Positions 37,843 to 41,994 of a stretch of DNA of 63,088 nucleotides are shown one piece after another. Under the pieces are notes generated by a model. It did no database searches, was not told the origin of the DNA, and saw only the letters and a list, made by a program, of their open reading frames with translations. Where the stretch lies: the IMG/VR virus record IMGVR_UViG_3300047470_000374, positions 1 through 63,088 of that record; one strand, written 5' to 3'. This stretch comes from a virus. Every line of letters starts with the position of its first letter. Position 1 is the first letter of the stretch. The position numbers were made by a program, and so were the translations under genes.

Positions 37843-38793
37843 TTATTTAATTTTGTGCTTAAAAGCCACAATACGAATTTGTTTTGGATCGTAAACACGT
37901 TCCCAATTATCGCCACTTGCAAGACCAGAGTTCTTCGGCGCAATACCATTCGCACCAGCCCATTTAATACCACGTGGATGTAGTACAAAGTGACGGCGGT
38001 TAATCAAGATATCTACACCAGCAAGACTATCGCGATCAGTTTCAACCGCATTTGGTGCACCAATATCTTGGAAGCCAACAGCACCTTGACCAAATAGGAA
38101 AGAAGTAAATACATCACCATCAACGGGCATGCCATCATCAACAATCACACGGCGATCCATAAAGGTTTTATAGAGTAAAACCCCATCAGCATCACGCACG
38201 GTTTCAATTAAACCCTGCTTAGATAAAGCTGACATAGTGAATGAATGCATTGAAATCGCCGTTAATTTATCGACCGCATCGCCAAGCTTATATGACGCAT
38301 CGACAAAAGAATGACCATCAATAACCGCTGCGGCCCCTACGCCAGCTGAAATATCATGTACGTTACTTGCCATACTTGCAGCACCAAAAACACCTTTGAG
38401 GGTATTCACGGTAAAGCCCTGAAACTCACGCGCCCAATAATCTGCTACCAGATCACCAACCGCACCGAGTGGATCGTCACCAGATAAGGCTTTTGCTAGA
38501 TCATTAGCACCCCATGCCTTACCACGGGCATGGAGAATTGCAATATCTTGACCTGATGTAATGTTATTTACAGTTAAAGGGGTTTGATCAGAGAGAACTT
38601 CCGATTCACCACTTAAATCGTTCCAAAAAGGAATATTTACAGTAGTACCACCCTTCGTTCCAAAAGCTACATCTTCTTCAAGATCCCCCACAATGCCAGA
38701 CTGCCATAAGGCAGATTTCTCAGCGGTTTTATTTAAAACATATGGAGTGAATAATTCAGGAACGATTACATCAGCAATTTTGGTATCAGCCAT
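37843..38793 (-). CDS. Major capsid protein
   Basis: 316 aa. KIADVIVPELFTPYVLNKTAEKSAL at the start (shown in part), GKAWGANDLAKALSGDDPLGAV in the helix, and VDILINRRHFVLHPRGIKWAG in the A-domain fit the HK97-fold coat proteins of this phage group. No N-terminal delta domain or protease is seen; scaffolding is a separate gene upstream. Confidence 0.85.
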   Translation of the reverse strand: MADTKIADVIVPELFTPYVLNKTAEKSALWQSGIVGDLEEDVAFGTKGGTTVNIPFWNDLSGESEVLSDQTPLTVNNITSGQDIAILHARGKAWGANDLAKALSGDDPLGAVGDLVADYWAREFQGFTVNTLKGVFGAASMASNVHDISAGVGAAAVIDGHSFVDASYKLGDAVDKLTAISMHSFTMSALSKQGLIETVRDADGVLLYKTFMDRRVIVDDGMPVDGDVFTSFLFGQGAVGFQDIGAPNAVETDRDSLAGVDILINRRHFVLHPRGIKWAGANGIAPKNSGLASGDNWERVYDPKQIRIVAFKHKIK

Positions 38794-38806: not shown

Positions 38807-39604
38807 TTAAAGTTTAATATTGTGTTTTGCTGCCAGCTCTTTAGCTAACTGCGGATTTTCATTTCGTAATTGCGCCAATTTGGTTAAGTTCACTGAACCA
38901 TCTGGTTTGAGAATGTCGACCTGACCTTTTGTATTGGCACTACCTGGTGCCCCCATACCATTTGGTTTAGGCCAGTAGTACGGTTTTAGCTCCCGTAGAG
39001 ATTCAACCCATTCTTTTGGGGTCTGCGGTGTCTGACCGTCTTTACCAATGACCACTTCACCGTTTTCATCTACAGCTACCGCTTTGCCGTTTTCATCTAA
39101 TGCAAACTTGGATTTAGCTAAAAAAGCGATGTCACCTGTTGCTTCAGCTAATGCTTCAAGCTCTACAGCCGCTTGAACGATTTGCCCTTGAATTACTGAC
39201 TCCTTAAACTTATTTGCATAAGCTTCGGCTTTGTCAGCACGGTCTTTTTCGGCTTTAAGTACCTTTTCATGTTCTTCACGCATCTTCTCGGTGCGTTTCT
39301 GAATCACTTCGGTAATTTTGCCTTCAGCGATTAACTTTGCTTCTTCATCTTGATCAAGTTGAGCAAAGACTCTTTTGACAATTTCAGGGTCAATTCCTTC
39401 GAACTGATTTTGAAGTTCCTGAAGTTTTCGTTTTGCATCCTTAGCGGCATCACGCTCACTTTGAAGTGCAGATTTCAAACCTTTAGGATCTTCATAGCCG
39501 TCTAAGTCAAGGCGAAACTTCCCGTTTTCCTCAACATACAAAGCGCGGTGCTCTTCTTTGATTGCATCAAGTGAATCAACAATAAATGGTAATGGCATGT
39601 TCAA
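38807..39604 (-). CDS. Capsid scaffolding protein
   Basis: 265 aa. Long charged coiled coil (LQSERDAAKDAKRKLQELQ, then KMREEHEKVLKAEKDRADKA) typical of scaffold proteins. ENGKFRLDLDGYEDPKGLKSAL near the start and a C-terminal NENPQLAKELAAKHN segment are usual in the family. It guides capsid assembly and is removed. Lies just upstream of the coat gene. Confidence 0.8.
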   Translation of the reverse strand: MNMPLPFIVDSLDAIKEEHRALYVEENGKFRLDLDGYEDPKGLKSALQSERDAAKDAKRKLQELQNQFEGIDPEIVKRVFAQLDQDEEAKLIAEGKITEVIQKRTEKMREEHEKVLKAEKDRADKAEAYANKFKESVIQGQIVQAAVELEALAEATGDIAFLAKSKFALDENGKAVAVDENGEVVIGKDGQTPQTPKEWVESLRELKPYYWPKPNGMGAPGSANTKGQVDILKPDGSVNLTKLAQLRNENPQLAKELAAKHNIKL

Positions 39605-39650
39605 ACCTCTCGTTTGATTTGGATAAAGCCTTATCTCAAGGCATTAAAAA

Positions 39651-39668
39651 AGCGCCCTTAAGGACGCT
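39651..39668 (-). terminator. Terminator after Acb2/Tad1-like gene
   Basis: AGCG plus CCTT pairs with AAGG plus CGCT, with one mismatch, A-run left. Confidence 0.7.
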
Positions 39669-39696: not shown

Positions 39697-40317
39697 TTAA
39701 ATTTGGTTTAAACCTTCCACGCCTCGTTTCTGGCGATCTCGTGTACGATGTTCTAACCACATTTGGCCTTGCTCAATGTTCGTAATTGCAAGTGAATTTT
39801 CACGGCATGGAAACTCTTGATTCAATATTCGCAAGCGATGTAAAACTATTGCGAGTAATGCTTCATTCGTTATGCCATTTACTCCAACTTCTTTAACTGG
39901 ACCTAGTTGAAATTGAATAGGTGTGAGTAAACCACCAGAAATCACATCGTAAAAATGTCCAGCTTTTAATGGCTGTTCACCATCCCGTGTTTTAACTGTT
40001 TCGTTATGGATAACTGTTACACCATTATCATCTTTATGAATTTCTCGGCCCAATACACAATTTTGAAAACCGTCTAGCTGATATGATTTTTCAAAAACAT
40101 CTTTTGGTGACCACGAAATATATCCTTCATGATCTGGATGATTAGCCTTGCCGCCATCTTTGTATTCAATTAAATAACCCGGATCACCTGGGTCTTCGTT
40201 TTCTGGAATTTGCCATCCTTGGTATTCATTATATTCACCACGTGACATAGGTATTGCTAGAACTGATTTGGTGCCGATGTATGCAACCATCGAAAGTGCT
40301 AATAGTTTCTTAGACAT
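39697..40317 (-). CDS. Acb2/Tad1 hairpin-domain protein, candidate anti-defence sponge
   Basis: 206 aa. The C-terminal 65 residues (NEALLAIVLHRLRILNQEF, CRENSLAITNIEQGQMWL, HRTRDRQKRGVEG) match the Acb2/Tad1 hairpin pattern; members bind cyclic nucleotides and block CBASS or Thoeris signalling. The N-terminal part (YIGTKSVLAIPMSRGEYN, GYISWSPKDVFEKSY) is a domain often fused to it in phages. The first residues look hydrophobic but fit the domain better than a signal peptide; ATG 40290 is an alternative start. Lies between head genes with own terminators. Activity is inferred. Confidence 0.65.
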   Translation of the reverse strand: MSKKLLALSMVAYIGTKSVLAIPMSRGEYNEYQGWQIPENEDPGDPGYLIEYKDGGKANHPDHEGYISWSPKDVFEKSYQLDGFQNCVLGREIHKDDNGVTVIHNETVKTRDGEQPLKAGHFYDVISGGLLTPIQFQLGPVKEVGVNGITNEALLAIVLHRLRILNQEFPCRENSLAITNIEQGQMWLEHRTRDRQKRGVEGLNQI

Positions 40318-40334
40318 TTTTTACTCACAAAAAA

Positions 40335-40350
40335 AGCACCCGAAGGTGCT
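40335..40350 (-). terminator. Terminator between 40397 gene and Acb2-like gene
   Basis: AGCACC (40335-40340) pairs with GGTGCT (40345-40350) around CGAA, A-run left. Confidence 0.8.
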
Positions 40351-40396
40351 ATGGTTAAAATCAGTTATTTTCTGGGCATGTTTCAAGACCAGAGGA

Positions 40397-40669
40397 TTAA
40401 GTAAACTTACTATTTTTTACTGAAAATTCAGCTCTAGCTTTATGCCATGCTCCTTCAGAAATCACACCTGTTATAAATCCGAGCTCTAACCCATCACCAA
40501 TATATTGTCTAAATTGACTAGTAGTTAAATTAAACTTAATTGCCACTTCTTTGGCAATTAATGGGGCATGTTCTAGAAGTACATTCCATTCATCTTGAGT
40601 AAGCTTTTCTTTTCCACGCAAAAATAACTCCATTGACTGTGCAAGTATTTCATTATTTATATCACTCAT
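40397..40669 (-). CDS. Hypothetical helical protein, 90 aa
   Basis: EILAQSMELFLRGKEKLTQDEW and IAVKFNLTTSQFRQYIGDG suggest a small helical bundle with an HTH-like second half. No family recognised. Located between MuF and the Acb2/Tad1-like gene, in an accessory pocket of the head module. Confidence 0.55.
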   Translation of the reverse strand: MSDINNEILAQSMELFLRGKEKLTQDEWNVLLEHAPLIAKEVAIKFNLTTSQFRQYIGDGLELGFITGVISEGAWHKARAEFSVKNSKFT

Positions 40670-40747: not shown

Positions 40748-40891
40748 TCAAATATGGCAGCAGGCTTTAGGGTATTTAAAGTTTAATCCGAAGAGAGCCA
40801 TATATCTTGGAATCAACTTCCGAACAAATGGCACCAAAATAATATTAGTGCTTAGGATATATTGCGCTTGAGTCATAGTTACTTGTTTCAT
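40748..40891 (-). CDS. Small hypothetical protein, 47 aa
   Basis: ATG overlaps the MuF gene stop (ATGA), which supports it. MKQVTMTQAQYILSTNIILV, then basic residues, then YPKACCHI at the end with a CC pair. Hydrophobic in its first half. Function unknown. Confidence 0.5.
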   Translation of the reverse strand: MKQVTMTQAQYILSTNIILVPFVRKLIPRYMALFGLNFKYPKACCHI

Positions 40892-41994
40892 AATCCAATG
40901 TCCTTAAATGTCTGCTCATCCAACTTTCGAAGTTGGTCCAGTGTGTAAAGCCGCCCTTTAGGATCAAAGAATTTATCAAAATCAAACTTTCCTTCTTTAT
41001 AAAGTTTGTACCGCTTTGGCCCTAGCCATTCATTCTGGAAGAAATCATCTGTTTTCTTAAAGAACTCTTTGAATGTGGTGTTTGCGTCCAATTGGCCGAT
41101 GAGTTGGCTACGCTCGTCTTTTGGGATGTCTTTAACTTTTCGCTCATCCATTACAAACGGTCTTTCTCCCACAAGGAGACCATCCTTATCTACAGCAACC
41201 AGAATACTGCGGCAGTTTCGATGTAATGGTGGTACTCGTTTTGCCGGATCATCAATTCTCCAGACAGTGCCATCTAATGACGCGCAAAGCTTTGTTGTTC
41301 TTCCATCCAATACACTGACAAAGCGGACATATTCAAAACCTAGCTGCTTGAAGGTGTCTAAATACGTTTGATTTGCTACATGGTTACGTAACGTTCTTAC
41401 AGTCTGATCAATGTCTGACTTAGTGCTAGTTAAAAGCCCATCTTCATAATTGAGGCGCTTGGTACCACGAATACGTTGGACAATTTCCTGATTCGTTTTA
41501 CCGGAGTTAATCCCATCCCGAATTGCATATTCAACTTTTTGGCGCGTTGTTTCGGCAATCTTGGCAAGTAGATCCTCTACCAATGCCCCGCCCACTAAGG
41601 GTGCTTTTTTAGCAGCTGAATAAAGTTTTTCGCCAATCGGCTTTTTAATCTTACCGCCGTACAGCTTTGCTGTGTAATTAGCCTCATATACCGCTAATGC
41701 TGTGGCTGAAACTGCGAATGCTTGAGGCAATGAAGTATTTATTGCCGTAAACCACTGAGAAATTAAATCCCGAATCTCTTTGAGGTTTGTCGTTGTGTAC
41801 TGACCACCCGCAAGAGCAAGCTTTTCAGAATCACTTAACTCATCTAACAAGTCTCTAAGCTTTGCCAGCATTAATGCCGACTCATCATTAAAGATTGTTA
41901 ATAATTCATTAACTGATTGAGAAGATGCTCGATATAAATACGCCTGGTGTTGTGTAAGTACTTCAATCAATGATTTTTCAATATTAGAAGCCAT
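40888..41994 (-). CDS. MuF-type minor head protein
   Basis: 368 aa. The MuF domain is near the middle to C-terminal: NHVANQTYLDTFKQLGFEYV, SVLDGRTTKLCASLDG, and VPPLHRNCRSILV (Cys/His pair, SPP1 gp7 family). An N-terminal helical domain binds the portal. It is a minor head or ejected protein needed for infectivity. Confidence 0.88.
   Translation of the reverse strand: MASNIEKSLIEVLTQHQAYLYRASSQSVNELLTIFNDESALMLAKLRDLLDELSDSEKLALAGGQYTTTNLKEIRDLISQWFTAINTSLPQAFAVSATALAVYEANYTAKLYGGKIKKPIGEKLYSAAKKAPLVGGALVEDLLAKIAETTRQKVEYAIRDGINSGKTNQEIVQRIRGTKRLNYEDGLLTSTKSDIDQTVRTLRNHVANQTYLDTFKQLGFEYVRFVSVLDGRTTKLCASLDGTVWRIDDPAKRVPPLHRNCRSILVAVDKDGLLVGERPFVMDERKVKDIPKDERSQLIGQLDANTTFKEFFKKTDDFFQNEWLGPKRYKLYKEGKFDFDKFFDPKGRLYTLDQLRKLDEQTFKDIGL

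Follow-up and report, generated by a model that had tools for sequence, protein, structure and literature searches.

What does a protein resembling a nucleotide-signal sponge do in the middle of a phage head gene cluster? Such sponges have so far been discovered family by family through phage screening. The question is raised by a gene in a viral DNA stretch of 63,088 nucleotides (the window), whose source is an Acinetobacter phage. A first-pass annotation had described the product as an Acb2/Tad1-like hairpin protein fused to a YISWSPKDVF domain, encoded among head genes with terminators of its own and therefore expressed late. The open reading frame (39697-40317, minus strand, 206 amino acids) is genuine; it contains all of the strings quoted for it (CRENSLAITNIEQG, RTRDRQKRGVEG, and YISWSPKDVF), and in close homologues the frame is kept, with low dN and high dS. 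The locus comprises the following features.

39697..40317, minus strand: composite gene of an N-terminal module (N-module) and a Tad1 domain, 206 amino acids, ATG start; candidate anti-defence gene
40078..40290, minus strand: N-module, residues ~10-80, beta-alpha-beta-beta-alpha
39697..40062, minus strand: Tad1 domain, residues ~86-206, with a beta part (residues 87-136) and a helical hairpin (residues 151-198)
40324..40350, minus strand: leader, the upstream cassette border, with the hairpin AGCACC-TTCG-GGTGCT (stem 40335-40350), a T-run, and GTGAG
39651..39668, minus strand: downstream terminator, the downstream cassette border, AGCGTCC-TTAA-GGGCGCT plus a T-run
40888..41994, minus strand: head-morphogenesis protein, upstream flank of the slot (phrog_241, E 1.7e-159)
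38807..39604, minus strand: head scaffolding protein, downstream flank of the slot (phrog_206, E 1.8e-71)
37843..38793: major capsid gene, on the downstream side of the slot beyond the scaffold gene

The gene is best read (probability roughly 0.82) as encoding a two-module anti-defence protein, in which a Tad1 sponge is joined to a sponge-associated N-module, on a cassette that is exchangeable within a slot at a constant place in the head region. This reading was built from sequence comparison, namely from Tad1 homology and fold, the conservation and partners of the module, the cassette borders, and the occupancy of the slot.

From the first-pass naming, it was Tad1 that stood, with both the beta domain and the hairpin present. 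When PDB chains were searched with phmmer, the protein matched CmTad1 (8kbb, E 3.9e-17) and CbTad1 (7uav, E 3.5e-8), the former value placing the likeness far beyond chance. The AlphaFold2 model of the full-length protein (pLDDT 83) has strands within residues 87-136 and helices at 151-168 and 172-198, the order of a Tad1, in which two long helices come after a beta domain, and Foldseek aligned it with 8kbb_D across 129 columns that take in the beta domain (E 1.7e-6, TM 0.67 on the target). The pTM of only 0.49 leaves the arrangement of the domains undefined. The KEVGVNG motif is retained and, like REN and R-T-R-D-R, shared with the solved Tad1 proteins; N174, R191, and R195, which we take to be equivalent to the ligand-binding hairpin residues N92, R109, and R113 of CbTad1, were invariant in the Tad1 alignment. 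The nearest stand-alone relatives among those aligned (L327, L330, and L326) were 49-54% identical. Clear as the similarity is by phmmer, the match to the Pfam family Acb2_Tad1_hairpin (PF24729) reached 25.9 bits and was formally a miss against the curated cut-off of 27; a clear stand-alone Tad1 relative (L051) scored only 20.7, so that the profile is insensitive for this Tad1 branch. Acb2, the other half of the original name, was discarded as the identity of the domain. It shares the two-helix hairpin and the Pfam family, but Acb2 proteins are small, all-helical, and devoid of the Tad1 beta domain, whereas the window protein has 206 residues with beta domains, and its significant PDB matches, as well as those by Foldseek, were all to Tad1 or Tad1-like proteins. 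Judged by homology and predicted fold, the C-terminal domain is a complete Tad1, not an Acb2. Unlike the solved Tad1 chains, which comprise 123-138 amino acids and stand alone, the window protein bears an extra N-terminal module of ~80 amino acids, and its gene is a terminator-bounded, exchangeable cassette.

A review (PMC12043709) describes Tad1 as a sponge for gcADPR and cyclic oligonucleotides. By homology, the Tad1 domain of the window protein would assemble and sequester gcADPR, the signal of Thoeris, as well as the cyclic di- and trinucleotides of CBASS; with these signals bound, the effectors would stay off, and the infected cell would neither die nor lose NAD+. Of 99 Acinetobacter species genomes sampled, 20 contain a SMODS CD-NTase, which indicates that relevant signals exist in this genus. 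The protein may exert anti-defence activity in its host.

The fusion to the YISWSPKDVF domain was borne out as well, with the N-module (residues ~10-80) placed ahead of the Tad1 domain (~86-206). The module consensus, YIGTK..YNxYRGWxxPENEDP..GYLVEY.DGG..GYISWSPxxVFE..Y, is kept in 75 diverse proteins, and residues Y29, W35, Y48, Y52, D54, Y66, W69, F75, and Y79, together with K17 and E41, are near-invariant across phages and partners. Its model is compact (pLDDT 93, pTM 0.77). No match was obtained in Pfam, NCBIfam, or the PDB sequences, and a fold search against solved structures gave nothing better than E 0.8; in PHROGs, the module occurs only as an unrecognised portion of several unknown families (phrog_872, 9467, and 32732). 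Between Acinetobacter homologues, dN was 0.035-0.069 in the N-module and 0.10-0.35 in the beta part of Tad1, with module and Tad1 part alike under purifying selection. A literature search yielded no earlier description of either the module or the slot, which is weak evidence of novelty because its coverage of subscription papers was thin.

When viral proteins were searched with the module only, 180 unique module-bearing proteins were obtained. Their partners were Tad2 (116), Tad1 (18), PF13876 (14), a PF21825-type hairpin (13), and WDGH (1); six more were three-domain proteins or had the reversed order, and 12 lacked a classified partner, several of these being PF21825 by Pfam, truncated, or stand-alone modules. 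PF13876 corresponds to Acb4, which binds 3′3′-cGAMP and several homologues of which carry extensions remarked upon as unexplained by the authors of that work (PMC11722364). As Acb4 is a proven sponge, 154 of the 180 module proteins (86%), namely those that also bear a Tad2, Tad1, or Acb4 domain, contain a sponge-family domain with experimental foundation. Two of the partners found in other proteins differ from the window protein's own: Tad2-like domains (PF11195, DUF2829), the commonest partner of the module, and Acb4 (PF13876, Phage_gp49_66) both have folds unrelated to Tad1 and are absent from the window protein (for PF11195, by Pfam search). In two phages (L226 and L270), short modules are joined to other Tad1 subfamilies, which implies that module-Tad1 fusions arose at least three times. 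Sponge genes also adjoin module genes: a Tad1 frame immediately follows a module-Acb4 frame in L054, and an Acb2 gene immediately follows a module-Tad2 gene in L037 and L106. Equating the PF21825 hairpin itself with Acb2 was considered and dropped, since the Acb2 of PaMx41 looks unrelated and a PDB search returned no Acb2. One protein (OM334891.1, L002:3001-3435) is annotated as DUF2829, yet its C-terminus is a PF21825-type hairpin and not Tad2; the name seems to have been carried over via the shared module. Single chains that stack three domains were also observed (L107:2083-2974, L169:2982-3723, L117:2982-3861, L211:3000-3696, and L126:2637-3453), combining the module with hairpin and Tad2, Acb4 and Tad2, or Acb4 and hairpin.

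Phages join the N-module to Tad1, Tad2, Acb4, and helical-hairpin domains, and as a sponge-associated domain it is most likely either a second ligand-binding site or an assembly contact, two roles that we weigh about equally. That the module is itself a sponge for a distinct nucleotide signal, so that one protein would have dual specificity and block two defence pathways, is plausible at somewhat less than even odds. The near-invariant aromatic and polar residues in very different phages and with different partners, the lower dN of the module compared with the Tad1 beta part, the occurrence of stand-alone copies (L123, L292, and L295), and the piling up of several sponge domains in three-domain proteins all argue for it; but no fold match hints at a ligand, and the conservation would also suit a surface that mediates oligomerisation or binds a host protein. 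The other role, an aid to assembly or solubility that has no ligand of its own and raises the avidity of whichever sponge is attached, would account for the company of unrelated folds (Tad1, Tad2, Acb4, and hairpin). The ligand pockets of sponges lie between protomers (PMC12043709 and PMC11722364), so an extra contact from the module could help. A single interface would, however, need to suit the Tad1 hexamer and the differently built Tad2 and Acb4 tetramers, stand-alone modules exist, and most Tad1 proteins work without the module; such a role is plausible at slightly lower odds than the first. Very improbable is a third explanation, under which a signal peptide at the Acinetobacter N-terminus would direct the protein to a role in the envelope. 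MSKKLLALSMVAYIGTKSVLA does resemble a signal sequence, but relatives lacking the first ~10 residues retain the YIGTKxVxAxPM stretch, the model places residues 19-23 in a strand of the module, and the ligands of Tad1 are cytoplasmic.

The sponge-associated reading of the module leaves the setting of the gene to be accounted for. Its own terminators, reported at first pass, are present, with stems at 40335-40350 upstream and 39651-39668 downstream; the region has six terminator-like sites where 2.9 are expected, and related phages have conserved both of these terminators. Where phages differ in their flanks, the DNA homologous to the window extends from 40352-40361 to 39630-39641 and hence ends at both terminators (L005, L006, L017, L028, and L029); in L037, the homologous stretch (40366-40105) takes in leader and module, after which the sequence switches to Tad2. 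The leader ends 6 nt before the ATG, and the T-run of its terminator ends ~11 nt before the start codon, an arrangement common to slot genes; in L039 and L049, the leader terminator is rebuilt with a different stem. A terminator so near to the start suggests one of two things, that late antitermination allows read-through or that the gene is insulated from transcription arriving from upstream, and the leader is possibly an attenuator or a device for antitermination-dependent expression. Late expression, which had been deduced from the position among head genes, is not supported; the terminators insulate the cassette from both neighbours. In being a single terminator-bounded gene within a late operon, among conserved phage genes, the cassette resembles phage morons. 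It differs from them in its constant address and in contents drawn from a narrow set of families; morons also have a promoter of their own and are expressed in the lysogen, and a promoter scan, a weak method, revealed no sigma-70-like site inside the cassette.

The head-cluster location was confirmed, with head morphogenesis on one side and scaffold and major capsid on the other. The stretch between head morphogenesis and the slot varies between phages; in the window, a 90-amino-acid frame just upstream of the slot (40397-40669, minus strand) has weak similarity to TMP_3 and tape_meas_nterm and, being like a tape-measure N-terminus, is misplaced among head genes.

By BLASTN, the same leader was found ahead of other genes in dozens of Acinetobacter phages, among them genes for a 104-amino-acid Acb4 and a 63-amino-acid protein (EHLP). 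IMG/VR was scanned with the DNA pattern of the leader only, blind to the gene downstream, which gave at least 119 loci at a spacing of 6 nt and 35 at 7 nt (at least 154 in all) and none with N5 spacing. Among the 154 loci listed, many of which stem from closely related phages, the leader preceded Acb4 in 95 (one further copy being cut off by the contig end), EHLP in 31, module-Tad1 in 22, module-Tad2 in three, and module genes without a recognised partner in two (at least one truncated); no other type of gene followed it. Unique proteins among those listed, both spacings added and some cut by contig ends, amounted to about 34 Acb4, 3 EHLP, and 10 module-Tad1. Acb4 is thus both the commonest occupant of the slot and a partner of the module elsewhere, and Tad2-like domains occupy the same slot in the three listed leader loci and in L037. 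The downstream terminator followed the slot gene in 133 of the 154 listed loci; relatives of the head-morphogenesis protein lay upstream in 120 of 121 slot loci, and on the downstream side a scaffold or capsid relative was present in 121 of 122. Between L387 and L389, 90.5% homology stops exactly at the ATG and 95.4% homology resumes just past the stop codon, the genes between these limits being unrelated; the same holds for L386 and L385. The leader occurred in no more than 2 of 99 Acinetobacter species genomes and hence is no general motif of intergenic regions. A 6974-bp A. baumannii "plasmid" record (L384, NZ_CP051476.1) is made up, at least in part, of phage head genes that include the Acb4 slot and is probably a phage fragment or a misassembly. 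In another record (L035:170-499), the module-Tad1 gene is truncated after NCVMGL and runs straight into the orf122 region, which is a deletion or an assembly join.

The occupants, the constant head flanks, and the start-to-stop exchange mark this position as a sponge slot, and the location among head genes is a fixed sponge address in this phage group rather than a peculiarity of one genome. Two larger points go beyond the first-pass annotation: the YISWSPKDVF domain recurs with several sponge families, and the slot swaps sponges. The cassette is exchangeable within the slot, where related Acinetobacter phages hold Acb4, module-Tad2, or the 63-amino-acid protein instead, and the slot may be a site selected for such exchange. 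That the product serves in head structure or assembly and merely resembles Tad1, as its constant location between head-morphogenesis and scaffold genes might suggest, is the least credible explanation of all, given that non-homologous genes take the same site with the flanks intact and that module-bearing relatives also occur outside head regions (for example, in Vibrio phage 41E34.2 between the ssb and endolysin genes).

The slot also draws attention to its less familiar occupant.

L386:3544-3735 and L387:3544-3735: EHLP, 63 amino acids, occupying the sponge slot (phrog_1761/5120)

EHLP (phrog_1761/5120) had matches in 366 phage records from Mycobacterium, Erwinia, Vibrio, Gordonia, and T4-like Acinetobacter phages. 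Profile comparison of EHLP with Acb2 or Tad1 gave no signal, a comparison of little power, since Acb2 against Tad1 itself gave a probability of only 20%. Sharing either the module or the slot makes EHLP, PF21825, and WDGH candidate sponges, the case of WDGH resting on one unique fusion. It can tentatively be proposed, at less than even odds, that the previously undescribed sponge-associated domain and the dedicated slot mark a whole class of phage sponges, that the N-module binds a nucleotide, and that EHLP, PF21825 (crAss001_48-related), and WDGH (PF25311) are hitherto unrecognised sponges for nucleotides.

The module, which keeps company with three proven sponge families, and the slot, whose identified occupants are sponges or a single uncharacterised family, provide two independent routes of guilt by association, and each leads towards anti-defence proteins not yet recognised. 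Three phage families that are common but functionally uncharacterised thereby become concrete predictions that are cheap to test. The exact start-to-stop swap of sponges at a constant address suggests that these phages retune counter-defence as a replaceable part.
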